Shown here: positions 11,161 through 57,503 of the stretch, piece by piece
Layout: every line of letters begins with the position of its first letter
Numbering within the stretch: position 1 is the stretch's first letter
Assembly: GCF_016916835.1 (NCBI RefSeq)
Contig: NZ_JAFFIX010000010.1
Coordinates: 124,001 to 188,000 of the forward strand
Direction of reading: 5' to 3'
DNA length: 64,000 bases
DNA from: Actinacidiphila bryophytorum
GTDB lineage: Bacteria; Actinomycetota; Actinomycetes; Streptomycetales; Streptomycetaceae
Translations under genes and position numbers: made by a program
Notes under the pieces: generated by a model
What the model saw: the letters and a program-made list of their open reading frames with translations, nothing else
Databases searched by the model: none
What the model was told of the DNA's origin: nothing

Positions 11161-11769
11161 TGACCCACCTTACGCACGGTCCGTCCGTTTCCCCCCAGGT
11201 AACGCCCGGTGTGTCGCCCCGCCCCCCTCTGCCCCTCCGAGCAGTCCCCCGCCCTTCCCCCGGCAGTGGCTGGGCGCGCAGTTCCCCGCGCCCCTGGGTG
11301 AGTGCCACTTGCTGTGGGCGGTCGCCTTTCCCCCGACGGTGGGCTGGTCTCGCAGTTCCCCGAGCCCCTGGGTGGGTGCCACTTACTGTGGCGTTGCATT
11401 CTTTTCGCCCGTTCGGGCTGGGCGCGCAGTTCCCCGCGCCCCTGAGGTCCTGCCCCTTGCGGTGCCATGTCGCCATTCCCCCGGTGGTGGGTTGCGCGCG
11501 CCGTTCCCCGCGCCCCCGGTTGTTGCCTCCTTCCCGCAGGGTGGGCGTTTTTCAGGGGGTGCCGTCTGGCTGGGAGGGCGAGCGTTTTTAGGGGCGCGGG
11601 GAACTGCGCGCCCAATTCACCCACTCGCCGGAAGGTGCGTGGCCACAGCAAGTGGCAATCACCTTGCACGCCCGGCCGGGGGAAAGGCGACCGCCCACCG
11701 CAGGGGGCACCCGGGCGTGGCGACGGCCGGCCGGGGGGAAGGGGGCCTAGCGTAAGGGGGGTGGTGGGT
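11161..11769. repeat. Repeat-filled divergent gap with five copies of the GGGGCGCGGGGAACTGCGC element
   Basis: No convincing gene lies in these 609 bp between the divergent PKS and UbiA genes. Copies of the repeat core occur at 11274-11295, 11350-11369, 11421-11443 and 11494-11517 (minus orientation) and 11580-11610 (plus orientation). The copies at 11272-11295 and 11420-11443 share an identical 24-bp stretch that is a perfect inverted repeat of 11590-11613. A second module, TGCCACTTGCTGTGG, follows the first core (11303-11317), recurs with one change at 11377-11391, and appears inverted at 11643-11657. Such elements are common in Streptomyces intergenic DNA; their role is unknown. Confidence 0.85.
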
Positions 11770-46301: not shown

Positions 46302-46358
46302 ACCCGCGCCGGCGGGGAAGGCGGTACGCCACCAGTCGTACGAGTGCGAGGCGATGAC

Positions 46359-47204
46359 GTGACCGCAAAGGTTGAGCAGGCTACCGGCGGACTGCCGTTG
46401 ATCGACGATGCGACGGCCGTGGCGCCGCGGGACGCGAGGACGCTGTCGAAACTGTTCTTCGACCGCCTGCAGGAACTGGAGGAGGGCTCTGCAGCCTACA
46501 GTTACGCACGCAACACGCTGATCGAGATGAACCTGTCGCTGGTGCACTTCGCGGCCGGGCGCTACCGCAACCGGCCCGCCACCGACCACGAGGAGATCGT
46601 GCAGGTGGGCACCATCGGCCTGATCAAGGCGATCGACCGCTTCGACCTGTCCCGCGAGACGGAGTTCACCACCTTCGCGGTGCCCTACATCGTCGGGGAG
46701 ATGAAGCGCTTCTTCCGTGACACCACCTGGGCGGTGCATGTGCCGCGGCGGCTGCAGGAGCTGCGGGTGGAGCTGAGCAAGGCCAAGGAGACGCTGTCGC
46801 TGGAGCTGGACCGCGACCCGACGGTCGCCGAACTGGCCGCGCACATGGACCTGTCGGAGGAGGAGGTCGTCGAGGGCCTGGTGGCCGCCAACGGCTACAC
46901 CGCGGGTTCCATCGACACCCCGTACACCGACGCCGACAGCACCTCGGACGGCGAGGGCCGCACGCTGGGCGAGACGTTCGGCGAGTGCGACCCGGCCCTG
47001 GACCTCTTCGAGGACTTCCACACCCTGGCGCCGCTGATCGAGAAGCTGCCGGAGCGCGACCGCCTGCTGCTGCGGCTGCGGTTCGGCGAGGAGCTGACGC
47101 AGGCGCAGATCGGCGAGCGGCTGGGGTGTTCGCAGATGCATGTGTCGCGGCTGCTGAGCCGGGTCGTGGCCCGGCTGCGCTCGGGGCTGCTGACCCAGGA
47201 CTGA
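46359..47204 (+). CDS. SigB/SigF/SigG-family RNA polymerase sigma factor
   Basis: Alternative sigma factor of 281 aa, group 3. Region 2 is clear (NLSLVHFAAGRYRNRPATDHEEIVQVGTIGLIKAIDRFD, including the -10-recognising helix FTTFAVPYIVGEMKRFFRD), region 3 is LQELRVELSKAKETLSLEL, and region 4 has LTQAQIGERLGCSQMHVSRLLSRV. Streptomycetes carry many such stress or development sigma factors controlled by RsbW-type anti-sigma partners; none is adjacent, though a broken ATPase gene of that class lies at 52.3 kb. The GTG at 46359 has GAGG 9 nt upstream; GTG 46344 is also in frame. Confidence 0.93.
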   Translation: MTAKVEQATGGLPLIDDATAVAPRDARTLSKLFFDRLQELEEGSAAYSYARNTLIEMNLSLVHFAAGRYRNRPATDHEEIVQVGTIGLIKAIDRFDLSRETEFTTFAVPYIVGEMKRFFRDTTWAVHVPRRLQELRVELSKAKETLSLELDRDPTVAELAAHMDLSEEEVVEGLVAANGYTAGSIDTPYTDADSTSDGEGRTLGETFGECDPALDLFEDFHTLAPLIEKLPERDRLLLRLRFGEELTQAQIGERLGCSQMHVSRLLSRVVARLRSGLLTQD

Positions 47205-49733: not shown

Positions 49734-49787
49734 GTAGGGATGAGACCGGGAATCCTCCCGGTGACGGAACGCACGAGGAGATGTGCC

Positions 49788-50123
49788 ATGAAGTACCTGC
49801 TGCTGATCTGCAGTGAGACCGCCGAGGGTTTCCCCGGCGCCACAGCCGAGGACATGGACGCCGAGCCGTGGGTCGAGGAGATGACCCGCAGGCGGGTGCG
49901 CCTCGACGGCAACAGGACGCGACCCGCCGAGGACGCCACGACCGTACGGGTCAGGAACGGCGCCCAGCTGCTCACCGACGGGCCGTACGCCGAGACCAAG
50001 GAGCAGATGTGCGGCTTCGACATCATCGACTGCGCCGACCTCGACGAGGCCGTCGAGATCGCGGCCAAGCATCCGGTCGCGAAGTTCGGCATGGTCGAAG
50101 TACGGCCGTTCTGGACGGACTGA
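49788..50123 (+). CDS. YCII-related (DGPF-type) protein, ECF42 partner
   Basis: Small cytoplasmic protein of 111 aa with the YCII fold. The family's DGPF motif appears as [22 protein letters not shown] (DGPY at about residues 64-67), and it ends VEVRPFWTD. Such genes are regularly found with ECF42 sigma factors and are their usual targets; the ECF gene follows 13 bp downstream. The biochemical activity is unknown. The ATG at 49788 follows GAGGAG. Confidence 0.88.
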
Positions 50124-50136
50124 GGCGGAAGCGGAC

Positions 50137-51387
50137 GTGCGTGACGCGGTGAAGGAGGCCGTCGCCACGGCCTGGTCCCAGGAGTGGGGCCGGGTCGTGG
50201 CGGCGGTGATCCGGCAGACCGGGGACTGGGACCTGGCGGAGGAGTGCGCGCAGGACGCCTTCGAGCGGGCGCTCGAACGCTGGCCGCGCGACGGGGTGCC
50301 GCGCCGCCCCGGCGCCTGGCTGACCACCACCGCGCGCAACCGTGCGCTCGACCGGCTGCGCCGGGCGGCCAACGAGAGCGTCAAGCTGCGCGAGGCCGCC
50401 CGGCTCACCCCGGACGCGCCGCACCCGGCCCCGCCCGACGAACTGCCCGACGACGCCCTCCCCGACGACCGGCTGCGGCTCATCTTCACCTGCTGCCACC
50501 CCGCGCTGCAGCTGCCCGCGCAGGTCGCCCTGACCCTGCGCACCCTGACCGGGCTCGGCACCGCCGAGATCGCCCGCGCCTTCCTGGTGCCCGAGGGCAC
50601 GATGGCGCAGCGGCTCACCCGCGCCAAGAACAAGATCAAGAACGCCGGCATCCCCTTCCGGGTGCCGCCCCCCGAACTGCTGCCCGAGCGCACCGCGGCG
50701 GTGCTCGCGGTGCTCTACCTGCTCTTCAACGCCGGTTACGCACCAGGCGCCGCCGGTCTCGACCAGCGGCGCGTCACCGCGGAGGCTATCCGGCTCGCCC
50801 GGCTGCTCACGGCGCTGCTGCCCGGTGAGCCGGAGGCCGCGGGCCTGCTCGCCCTCATGCTGCTGCACGACGCGCGGCAGGCGGCCAGAACGGATGCGGA
50901 CGGCGGGCTCGTGCCGCTCGACGAGCAGGACCGGTCCCGGTGGGACCGGCGCCGTATCGCCGAGGGCACGGCGGTGCTCGACGCCGCGCTCGCCGCCCGG
51001 CGGCCCGGCCCCTACCAGGTGCAGGCCGCCATCGCCGCGTGCCACGCGGAGGCGGAGGACGCGGCGGACACGGACTGGCCGCAGATCGCGCTCCTCTACG
51101 GGGAGCTGGCCCGGATGGCCCCCGGGCCGGTGGTCGAGCTGAACCGGGCCGTCGCCGTCGCCATGTCGGAAGGCCCCGCGGCCGGGCTCGCCCTGGTCGA
51201 CGCCATTGCCTCCGGCGGTGAGCTGGCCCACTACCACCTGCTTCCGGCGACCCGCGCGGACCTTCTGCGGCGCCTGGGCCGCCACCGCGAGGCCGCGGCG
51301 GCCTACCGCCAGGCCATCGCCCTGGCCCCCACCACCTCCGAACGCACCTACCTCACCACCCGCCTCACCTCCCTGCCCAAGGGCTGA
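50137..51387 (+). CDS. ECF42-type RNA polymerase sigma factor with C-terminal TPR-like domain
   Basis: ECF sigma factor of 416 aa, about twice the length of a simple ECF. Sigma-2 (about residues 20-90, [20 protein letters not shown] through NRALDRLRR) and sigma-4 (about 115-170, [31 protein letters not shown]) are followed by a helical TPR-like extension (about 200-410) with the family segment [13 protein letters not shown]. In this class the extension replaces a separate anti-sigma factor and is needed for activity. Its partner YCII gene is 13 bp upstream. The GTG at 50137 is used. Confidence 0.9.
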
Positions 51388-51589
51388 CCCTGCCCCTTGC
51401 GCAGCCTTCCCCCGGACAGGGAACCCGGCGTGCCGTCCGGGGGGCGGGGGGTCATCGGCCTTGCCGCCAGGTCACCCGCTGCAAGTGCTGTGACCGGCAA
51501 AGTTGGCCGAGTCGGTGGTTGTGGCGGTTGGATGTCCGGTGACGCCCGATCCCGTCCTTCTGCAACCCCGCACCCCAGGGAGCTCTGGC

Positions 51590-52156
51590 ATGGCAGTGGA
51601 GATCGTCTACGAAACCCACGCCACCACCACGGACAACGAGGCCGGCATCTCCACCGGCTGGCTTCCGGGCCACCTCTCGGAACAGGGCCGCCGCGAAGCC
51701 CGTGAACTCGGCGAACGCCGCCGCGGCCAGGACATCGCAGCCGTGTTCACCTCCGACCTGTACCGCTCCGTCGAGACCGCCCTGATCGCCTTTCCCGAGG
51801 GCCGACCGCCGATCCACCAGGACACCCGGCTGCGGGAGTGCAACTACGGCGAACTCAACGGCCTGCCATCCGAACTCGTCGCGGCCCGGCGCGCCCGACA
51901 CATCGATGAGCCCTTTCCCGGCGGCCAGAGCTACCGACAGGTTCTGGCCGCCACCAACGACCTCCTCCAGGACCTGGCCCGGCACTGGAACGGCAGGCGA
52001 ATCGTGGTGATCGCCCACACGGCCAACCAATGGGCACTGGACTGCCTGCTCACCGGAACCTCCCTCCACGGCCTGCTCACCTCCCCGTTCACCTGGCAGC
52101 CAGGCTGGTCCTACACGCTGCCCTCCGACTGGGGCAACCAGCCCGCCCGGCCTTGA
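51590..52156 (+). CDS. Histidine-phosphatase-superfamily protein with a variant RHG motif
   Basis: Phosphoglycerate-mutase-like fold, 188 aa. The usual N-terminal RHG is replaced by ETH (IVYETHATTTDNEAGISTGWLPGHLSEQGRREA), keeping the nucleophilic His but losing the phosphate-binding Arg. The second half has FTSDLYRSVETA, the acid segment LRECNYGELNG and the second His in VVIAHTANQWALDCLL. Activity may therefore be altered. The ATG at 51590 is preceded by GGGAG. It is flanked by repeat-bearing and decayed DNA downstream. Confidence 0.82.
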   Translation: MAVEIVYETHATTTDNEAGISTGWLPGHLSEQGRREARELGERRRGQDIAAVFTSDLYRSVETALIAFPEGRPPIHQDTRLRECNYGELNGLPSELVAARRARHIDEPFPGGQSYRQVLAATNDLLQDLARHWNGRRIVVIAHTANQWALDCLLTGTSLHGLLTSPFTWQPGWSYTLPSDWGNQPARP

Positions 52157-52300
52157 CGGTCGCAGCCCTGACGGTGACCCGCCCGGCATCGAGGACGGTC
52201 AGCTCGGGGGGGTGGTTGTAGGCATCCATGCTGGCCTTGTTGGTGGAGGCGTCCTGGAAGATCAGTTCCCAGTGGCCGGTGGCGCCGTGATCCGTGCATC

Positions 52301-52564
52301 GTGGGCGGGGTGCGGCGGCTGCTGGTGTGGTATCCGGCCGCGTGGGACCTGCGGGAGCTGGCGGACGTGGCCGAAGTGCTGGTCTCCGAGCTGGTCACCA
52401 ATGCCGTGAGCATGCCCACGGACCGGGGGACGCCCTGGTCGAGACGCGATTCGAGCGCCCGCCGGGCGGGGATCTGCGCATCGAGGTGCACGACGCCAAG
52501 GCGGACAAGCCCGAGCTGCGTCCGTTGTCTGCCGATGCCGAGTCGGCGCCAGGGGGCACCTCTC
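52301..52564 (+). pseudogene. Broken RsbW-like ATP-binding (HATPase) protein gene, frameshifted and truncated
   Basis: One frame reads VRRLLVWYPAAWDLRELADVAEVLVSELVTNAV, the N-box region of the streptomycete anti-sigma-type ATPases; a different frame then continues DALVETRFERPPGG...LRIEVHDAKADKPELRPLSADAE, the next conserved segment. A frameshift near 52400-52430 joins them. The expected G-boxes are absent because the sequence ends at repeat DNA (from about 52565). No start codon with a ribosome-binding site is evident. Confidence 0.7.
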
Positions 52565-52694
52565 AGGGGCGGGGAACTGCGTGCTCAATCACCCACGCAC
52601 AGGAAGGTGCAAGCTCACAGCAAGTGGCAACCGCCCAGGAGGCGCTGGGGGTGCCCCCAGGCGAAGCTCTGGGGGCGGAACTGTGCGACAAGCC
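52565..52694 (+). repeat. Composite repeat: interspersed core, AGCAAGTGGCA module and GGGGGTGCCCCC palindrome
   Basis: Degenerate core AGGGGCGGGGAACTGCGT (52565-52582), the TCACAGCAAGTGGCA module (52615-52629), the palindrome CTGGGGGTGCCCCCAG (52645-52660) and a second core copy (52670-52694, one mismatch to the reverse complement of 17165-17189). It lies between the broken ATPase gene and the 3' end of the GH9 gene, which is on the opposite strand. Confidence 0.8.
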
Positions 52695-52757
52695 CACCGC
52701 CCGGGGAAGGGCGACCGCCCCAGCGCGAGGGGCAGTCGCCAAGGGAACCCGGAGGGG

Positions 52758-55583
<2,826 letters not shown>

Positions 55584-55723
55584 TCAGGGGGCATCCTGAT
55601 CCACTCACGAGGGTTTCTTTTCTTCACATGAGATGACTGACGTCTCGAGTGGCAGGAAGAAGGGGAGACGCGACCGCCGTCTCCGGCCCTTGCCGGACGA
55701 CCGATGAGGTGTGAGGTCCCACC

Positions 55724-57091
55724 GTGCGCAAGCCGACACGTTCCCCCGCTGACCCGCGACAGCGCCGCGCGCCGATCCGCGCGGCATCGCACGGCGGTCT
55801 GCCCGCCGGGGTCCGCGGGGCAGCTCTCGTCCTCGGCCTGCTGGCCACCGCGACCGCGGGCCTGACCGCGTGCGGCAACGGCGGCTCGAACTCCTCGGAG
55901 AACACCGCCTCGGCGACCGCCCCCGGCTCCTCGCCCACGACCACCACCGGCACCCCCAGCCCCACCGCCACGTCGGCTTCCCCCACGGCCACGCACACCA
56001 CGGCCGTACCGCCGCCCCCCAACACCGGCACCGCCAAACCCGCCGGCTGCATCAGCCGGGCGATCTCCGGCATGAGCCAGTCGCAGCAGGTCGGCCAGCT
56101 GTTCATGAGCGCGGTGAGCACCTCGGGCATGACCGGCGCGCAGGCCGCAGCGATCACCGGCGGCCGGGTCGGCTCGGTCTTCCTGATGGGCCACTCGAGT
56201 GCCGGCACCGCGGCCGTCAAACGGGTCACCGACCAGGTCAAGAAGCTGGCGCCGTCGGTGAAGGGCGTCACCGTCAAGATGATCATCTCCACCGACCAGG
56301 AGGGCGGCGAGGTCCAGGTGCTCAGCGGCCCGGGCTTCAGCAGCATCCCGACCGCCGTACAGCAGGGCAAGCTCTCACCGAGCACGCTCCAGAAGGACGC
56401 CAAGACCTGGGGGCAGCAGTTGAAGGCCGCCGGGGTGACGATGAACCTGGCGCCCGTCGCCGACACCGTGCCGCCCAACCTGGTCAACGTCAACGCGCCC
56501 ATCGGCAAGCTCCAGCGCGAGTACGGCACGGACCCTGCCGCGGTCGCCACCCACAGCACCGCCTTCCTCAAGGGCATGCTCCAGGCCGGCGTCATCACCA
56601 GCGCCAAGCACTTCCCCGGGCTCGGCCGGGTGACCGGCAACACCGACTTCAGCGCCGGAGTCACCGACGCGACCACCGCGGCCAACGACCCCTACCTGCA
56701 GCCCTTCCGCAGCGCGGTCAAGGCGGGTACGCCCTTCGTGATGGTGTCCTCGGCGATCTACTCCAAGATCGACCCGAACACGCAGGCGGCCTTCTCCTCG
56801 GCGGTCATGCGCAACCTGCTGCGCGGGTCGCTGGGCTTCAAGGGCGCGATCATCTCCGACGACCTCGGAGCGGCCGTGGCGGTCAGCGACCACACGCCCG
56901 CCCAGCGGGCGGTCGACTTCCTCAAGGCCGGCGGCAATGTCGTCCTCACGGTCAAGCCGAGCGACATCGTCCCCATGACGTCAGCCGTACTCAGCCGTAT
57001 GCCTACGGACTCCGCGCTGCGGAGCGCGGTGTCCGACAGTGTTCGGCGGGTGCTGACCGCCAAACAGAACGCAGGCCTCCTGACCTGCTGA
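55724..57091 (+). CDS. GH3 (NagZ-like) lipoprotein
   Basis: Exported glycoside hydrolase of 455 aa with a lipobox (LATATAGLTAC, Cys at about residue 49) and a Ser/Thr/Pro-rich linker to about 100. The GH3 barrel begins SRAISGMSQSQQVGQLFM and contains IISTDQEGGEVQVL, VITSAKHFPGLGRVTGNTD and GFKGAIISDDLGAAVA (nucleophile Asp). The NagZ DSH dyad loop reads NTDFS here, so the usual His general acid is missing. Likely role: a peptidoglycan or chito-oligosaccharide beta-N-acetylhexosaminidase at the cell surface, with modified chemistry. GTG at 55724. Confidence 0.84.
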   Translation: MRKPTRSPADPRQRRAPIRAASHGGLPAGVRGAALVLGLLATATAGLTACGNGGSNSSENTASATAPGSSPTTTTGTPSPTATSASPTATHTTAVPPPPNTGTAKPAGCISRAISGMSQSQQVGQLFMSAVSTSGMTGAQAAAITGGRVGSVFLMGHSSAGTAAVKRVTDQVKKLAPSVKGVTVKMIISTDQEGGEVQVLSGPGFSSIPTAVQQGKLSPSTLQKDAKTWGQQLKAAGVTMNLAPVADTVPPNLVNVNAPIGKLQREYGTDPAAVATHSTAFLKGMLQAGVITSAKHFPGLGRVTGNTDFSAGVTDATTAANDPYLQPFRSAVKAGTPFVMVSSAIYSKIDPNTQAAFSSAVMRNLLRGSLGFKGAIISDDLGAAVAVSDHTPAQRAVDFLKAGGNVVLTVKPSDIVPMTSAVLSRMPTDSALRSAVSDSVRRVLTAKQNAGLLTC

Positions 57092-57503
57092 CCCCACCCC
57101 GGGTACGCCCACGCAGTTCCCCGCGCCCCCTTTCGCGTGATTGCCCCTTGCGGCGGGCCTACACCTTCCGGTGAGTGGTGGGCTGGGCGCGCCCCGCGCC
57201 CCTGATGGTTGCCCTCTCCCGCAGAGGCGGCGCCCTCGCCTGCAAGGGTGAGCGTTTTTAGGGGCGCGGGGAACTGCGCGACAAGCCACCACGCAGGCGC
57301 GGGCACGGGATGTACGGGGAGGGGCGCGGCCTGGGGCCGGTGGGGATCGCGGGGTTGAAAACCCCGGAAAGGGTGCCCTTAGGTGGCTGGTCGGTGAACT
57401 GCCGCGGAATTGTGGATTCCCGCGCATCGGCGACCGCATGGCTGCGCCATGCGGTGCTTAGCATGAGCCGCACCGATCCACCGCACCGAACTGGAGGTCC
57501 GGC
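57092..57503. repeat. Repeat cluster between the GH3 and efeO genes
   Basis: No gene is evident in the first 240 bp. Repeat cores occur at 57111-57130 and 57185-57203 (minus; the second lacks AGTTCC) and at 57250-57280 (plus), the last identical over 31 bp to 11580-11610 and continuing with ACAAGCC. This repeats the minus-minus-plus order seen in the 11.3-kb cluster. A 7-bp stem hairpin with a GAA loop lies at 57350-57366. The remaining 140 bp hold the efeO promoter. Confidence 0.8.
57434..57464 (+). promoter_or_regulatory. efeO promoter region with an 8-bp inverted repeat
   Basis: CCGCATGG (57434-57441) and CCATGCGG (57447-57454) flank a 5-bp spacer immediately upstream of TAGCAT (57459-57464), a plausible -10 box. 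A repressor bound here would cover the -35 region. It does not resemble the DmdR/IdeR iron box. Confidence 0.5.

Follow-up and report, generated by a model that had tools for sequence, protein, structure and literature searches.

Accessory loci of the AbaA (OrfA)/WhiJ type in Streptomyces place a gene for a HATPase-domain protein beside a gene for an XRE-type HTH protein and, according to the part of the source consulted, occur as many paralogues per genome (PMC10294661). Like these loci, the family of the gene remnant described here combines a HATPase gene with a neighbouring XRE-type gene and forms large paralogue sets per genome. Unlike them, the ATPases of the intact relatives carry a C-terminal HTH_3 domain, and the copy studied here is dead. 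The repeat array at which the remnant ends can be compared with REP/BIME repeats, which the consulted sections of a second source describe as present in both orientations and in composite structures, with over 100 copies in each genome (PMC2817692). Our repeat resembles them in all three respects; it differs in having units of ~74 bp with another core, and in a host genome that gave no match for a Y1 (REP-type) transposase. A third comparison is offered by Streptomyces clavuligerus, in which bidirectional transcript ends are unusually frequent at XRE-DUF397 units, as stated in the consulted part of that report (PMC8269248). There as here, 3'-end regions on opposite strands are concerned, whereas that part describes no repeat family, and termination at our array is a plausible function.

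The window is a 64,000-nucleotide stretch of Actinacidiphila bryophytorum (G000:C2:124001-188000), whose genome comprises 8.05 Mb in 96 contigs. The first-pass annotation had reported an ATPase gene at 52301-52694 with HATPase segments split over two frames. The split was confirmed. When tblastn was run with the intact protein of locus L029 as query, HATPase coding similarity was found at 52277-52411 and then, in another frame, from 52411 (E 1.5e-31), and an alignment with six intact homologues showed that, up to 52549, the only indel is the loss of one base near 52407. The limits had to be corrected: together with ungapped walks, these comparisons define 52276..52549 on the plus strand as the central portion of an AbaA-like HATPase-HTH gene, and 52550-52757 is repeat array and spacer. 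Over ~270 bp, the DNA of the ATPase piece is 84-85% identical to loci of two relatives, G012 and G031 (E ~1e-80), a similarity far above chance; the values are 82% for G020 and 80% both for G009 and for an intact paralogue of the accessory AbaA-like/XRE-pair ATPase elsewhere in the same genome (contig C34). The piece starts at the equivalent of residue 119 in a relative of 341 aa, and its homology ends at ~52549, just ahead of the GRGL stretch of the intact proteins. The broken ORFs as they stand gave no Pfam domain; the intact relatives L029, L034 and L031 gave HATPase_c_2 above the cut-off together with HTH_3, and the window fragment covers part of HATPase_c_2 only. Codon-position counts in the remnant showed no clear loss of constraint and are too few for dating the decay. 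The sequence at 52276-52549 is a dead, doubly truncated, ordinary accessory pseudogene, and no function is expected of it.

Next to the ATPase piece lies a second remnant which, like the 5'-side cut itself, had been missed in the earlier annotation. It is the C-terminal tail (~25 codons) of an XRE-type HTH regulator gene, the partner of the ATPase, at 52207..52281 on the minus strand, with 93% DNA identity to G009:C61 and 88% amino acid identity to residues 227-251 of the L029 protein (253 aa). Loci L029 (G009) and L030 (G012) hold the intact divergent pair, with an XRE gene of 253 aa in both and an ATPase-HTH gene of 341 and 294 aa, respectively; the 253-aa XRE gene itself scored below the cut-off for HTH_3. 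In L031 and L034 the ATPase has other HTH genes as neighbours. The stretches that match the window lie ~1.2 kb apart in L029 and ~1.06 kb apart in L030, and in the window they touch. Ungapped walks, made from L029, L030 and L035 on the XRE side and from L029, L031, L032 and L034 on the ATPase side, placed the end of XRE homology at 52281 and the start of ATPase homology at 52276/52277, so that the two share 5-6 bases at a deletion junction (52277..52281). Judged from these alignments, this looks like one deletion of ~1.2 kb at a short direct repeat, an event supported by comparison with the intact pairs. It would have fused the XRE tail to the ATPase middle, taking away the larger part of the XRE gene together with the common promoter region and the ATPase start.

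The same evidence bears on the idea that a functional gene only looks broken through a mistake in sequencing or assembly. A single 1-base deletion is a typical error type. However, both ends of the gene are gone in any frame, the partner is cut to 25 codons, and the contig, 299 kb long, is collinear with relatives on both sides, which makes this explanation highly improbable.

Both remnants belong to a segment of ~1.1 kb (ATPase piece, phosphatase and IS630-type end) that was seen between the ECF sigma gene and the GH9 cellulase gene in this genome alone. Its left neighbour is a conserved ECF-type sigma gene with DUF6596 (50137..51387, plus strand; Pfam). On the right, the array is followed by the conserved GH9 cellulase gene (52758..55541, minus strand; Glyco_hydro_9, E 3e-142), whose best orthologues in relatives have 82-92% DNA identity. 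Upstream of the phosphatase gene, at 51484..51552 on the plus strand, lies the left-end remnant (terminal repeat and ~55 bp) of an IS630-type insertion sequence. This end is 81-85% identical over 65-84 bp to the starts of DDE_3/HTH transposase genes in L214, L215 and L216 (Pfam was run on L214 and L216). Like IS630-type insertion sequences, it has a left end with a terminal repeat, which occurs once in the window, at 51484; unlike them, the window segment lacks both the DDE_3 transposase, which is present in L214 and L216, and the right end. The phosphatase gene itself is an intact accessory histidine-phosphatase gene (~51590..52156, plus strand; His_Phos_1, E 3e-27), with its start codon picked from homologue matches. 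Its distribution is patchy, in 12 of 61 family genomes including this one (E 1e-20); a search in named genomes gave 58 loci with a best identity of 80%. Six phosphatase neighbourhoods in relatives (L139-L144) had no match to the 253-aa XRE protein or the ATPase, and the phosphatase and the XRE/ATPase pair are therefore probably independent accessory genes. Nothing in a plasmid collection matched 52150-52900.

The ATPase had also been read, tentatively, as an anti-sigma factor whose loss left a SigB/F-type sigma factor 5 kb away orphaned, a reading that the comparison did not support. The sigma gene in question (46344-47204) has sigma regions 2, 3 and 4 in Pfam, the SigB/F label being that of the first-pass annotation. 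The presence of HATPase_c_2 in the intact relatives would suit an anti-sigma factor of this sigma gene. Yet the gene is in the same place in G012, G020, G015 and G008, and no ATPase match lies near it in the fetched stretches of L097, L100, L102 and L105; in L029-L034 the ATPase lies elsewhere. The ATPase family, moreover, has a C-terminal HTH and accompanies XRE-type genes, and an intact paralogue of this accessory pair's ATPase is kept on C34. The sigma gene nearest to the remnant is the ECF-type one with DUF6596, beside a YCII-domain gene. That a true anti-sigma factor was lost here is scarcely credible. The position expected of an RsbW/SpoIIAB-type anti-sigma gene, beside its sigma or anti-anti-sigma gene, is likewise not that of the ATPase in these stretches. 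HATPase_c_2 had 62 matches over the cut-off in the genome, none of them inside the window. As a separate observation, the YCII-domain gene and the DUF6596 sigma gene follow one another at 49785-51387 and presumably form the usual ECF42-type pair, which has no separate anti-sigma factor.

As the earlier annotation had noticed, the gene similarity stops where the repeat begins: the ATPase homology ends at ~52549, and own-genome repeat copies that reach this edge start aligning at 52543-52551, mostly at 52550/52551. On the basis of these copies, their alignment starts and ends and a core scan, the feature at 52550..52745 (plus strand) is the right half of a composite repeat array, composed of a core unit, a hairpin element (52643-52678) and a further unit. 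At many of 20 own-genome places examined, a reverse arm leads into a centre bearing a hairpin and a T run, which a forward arm follows; of this often two-armed arrangement the window has the right half alone. The copies that match this array best (87-90% identity) are found at other sites in the genome. With up to 1 mismatch, the 20-base core occurs 622 times in the genome (303 forward, 319 reverse), compared with 0 in the control. It was found in 27 of 35 genus genomes, being absent from the other 8, and in 78 of 121 genomes sampled across the family. The window holds three arrays, at 11275-11610, 52550-52745 and 57110-57280.

Several observations concern the nature of the repeat. Flanking genes at the own-genome arrays were convergent in 6 cases, in the same direction in 8 and divergent in none, for the 14 of 20 places that could be called by a crude GC3 test with several narrow calls (a GC3-GC2 excess of at least 0.2 in both flanks, a threshold chosen after seeing the output; 6 of 20 were dropped). 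A terminator-like match is present at 57235 in the neighbouring array (57.1-57.3 kb), and none in 52550-52757. RNA folding of four pieces was no better than that of shuffles for three, and no Rfam family was found in the window. With one terminator-like match, crude orientation counts and folding near that of shuffles, a terminator function can be called plausible. The array is most likely a 3'-end (terminator-like) intergenic repeat and, most likely too, a site of chromosomal recombination and of gain or loss of DNA. Y1 transposase (PF01797) had 0 matches in this genome and was positive in 6 of 41 genomes, in a search whose control detected 5 of 14 known genomes. REP/RAYT-type mobility was rejected on the absence of Y1_Tnp from the genome; with no REP-type transposase found there, the repeat would have to spread in some other way, such as by template switching or gene conversion. 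Among the titles and abstract openings searched, no description of this repeat in Streptomyces was found.

Two accounts of the 3' cut had been offered, insertion of the repeat into the gene and repeat-mediated deletion of its 3' end, together with the proposal to compare relatives that carry the intact ATPase. In six such homologues the reading frames continue beyond the cut point and no repeat lies there. In the window, the ATPase 3' half is absent beyond the array, where the next feature is the cellulase stop at 52758. We then compared the spacer in 14 relatives with a GH9 orthologue, 10 spacers being read (~2.1 kb in all). None of the 14 had a match to the phosphatase-XRE-ATPase segment beside the cellulase. 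In seven of them (G012, G006, G020, G015, G026, G008 and G022) the sigma and cellulase genes are adjacent, ~90-500 bp apart. Allowing up to 4 mismatches, the core was present in 5 of the 10 spacers (G012, G031, G006, G020 and G026), compared with 3 and 5 chance matches in two 64-kb controls, and absent from the other five (G009, G015, G008, G032 and G022). It lies on the cellulase side in G031 and in the sigma-cellulase spacer in G012, G006, G020 and G026, in every case without the ATPase.

Since five relatives have the core there and none the segment, repeats in this spacer are independent of the ATPase. Likewise, the absence of the segment from all 14 relatives, several of which carry the same type of repeat, suggests that the repeat was probably resident and the ATPase the newcomer. 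An intact XRE/ATPase pair in the sigma-cellulase spacer was found in no genome, and the order of events was thus not seen. The G012 spacer has a hairpin element like that at window 52643-52678; its array differs from that of the window in unit content, with only 59 bp aligning well. Because unit content varies between species and the closest copies lie elsewhere in the same genome, the array appears to have turned over, and its replacement or conversion might date from when the segment arrived or from later.

These results separate the two accounts. Movement of the repeat into an intact ATPase gene, with later loss of the downstream half, would explain the sharp junction at 52549/52550, and the array copies most like that of the window do lie elsewhere in the genome. 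It is unlikely all the same: no ATPase 3' sequence is present beyond the array, the same kind of repeat occurs without the ATPase in the spacers of G012, G006, G020 and G026 and on the cellulase side of G031, and the presence of a single half, where arrays often have two arms, is better explained by loss than by the insertion of a complete element. As the 3' half does not reappear and related genomes have this repeat type without the ATPase, insertion into the gene is unsupported, and deletion is the better supported of the two.

Arrays also lie at the ends of a rearranged block. The GH9-GH3 block (52757-57095, or 52.7-57.1 kb) is inverted relative to both flanks in two sister species, G031 (L098 and L203) and G009 (L099 and L204), and has the window's order at both ends in G012, G020 and G006. 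The break points of the inversion lie within 51387-52757 and 57095-57357, both of them spacers with an array in the window. At the inverted block, core copies are present at one end only in G031 and at neither end in G009, which makes array-mediated inversion a fair inference rather than a demonstration. The GH3-side spacers contain 2-5 kb of extra DNA in G012, G006, G031 and G009. A further insertion spot was observed between convergent genes at 47.2-47.3 kb, with an additional 1.2 kb in G020 (L100) and 8.4 kb in G009 (L204). The window has no repeat core at this spot, and with large insertions there as well, the arrays are not the sole places of insertion.

Arrays that are numerous and that lie at the ends of an inverted block make exchange between them plausible. 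Recombination between arrays might accordingly have brought the fragment, already truncated at an array elsewhere, into the spacer together with the phosphatase; the 622 core copies, the arrays at the ends of the block inverted in G031 and G009, and the closest resemblance of the window array to other own-genome copies would all suit such a transfer. Against it, the truncated junction was found only once in the genome, and the left edge of the segment is the IS630 end, not an array. We consider this course of events improbable.

We hold instead, with good though not full confidence, that the remnant is a doubly truncated accessory XRE/ATPase pair in the sigma-cellulase spacer, trimmed at a resident, terminator-like, recombining array. 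A divergent accessory pair, made up of an XRE-type HTH gene and an AbaA-like HATPase-HTH gene, would have been gained in the ECF sigma-GH9 spacer, which would already have contained a repeat array, as several relatives do. The pair would have arrived with, or next to, the histidine-phosphatase gene and the IS630-type element. Besides the deletion that joined the XRE tail to the ATPase middle, a second deletion, from the ATPase interior to the array centre, would have removed the ATPase 3' half and the left half of the array. We infer that the repeat itself drove this 3' deletion.

On a larger scale, we can suggest only tentatively that this Streptomycetaceae-wide repeat, with its two-armed arrays, terminator-like hairpin and position at the 3' ends of genes, serves as a substrate for recombination. 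Gene blocks might be flipped by paired arrays, array centres might act as break points that capture or trim incoming accessory DNA, and the ATPase remnant might be one frozen case. The interest of the repeats lies in a possible part in inversions and in the trimming of incoming genes, and in a multiplication for which no transposase is known. The gene remnant itself represents ordinary decay of accessory DNA. The repeat may matter more, with several hundred copies, a distribution that takes in the majority of the family genomes examined but leaves some out, and a position at both ends of a gene block whose orientation depends on the species.
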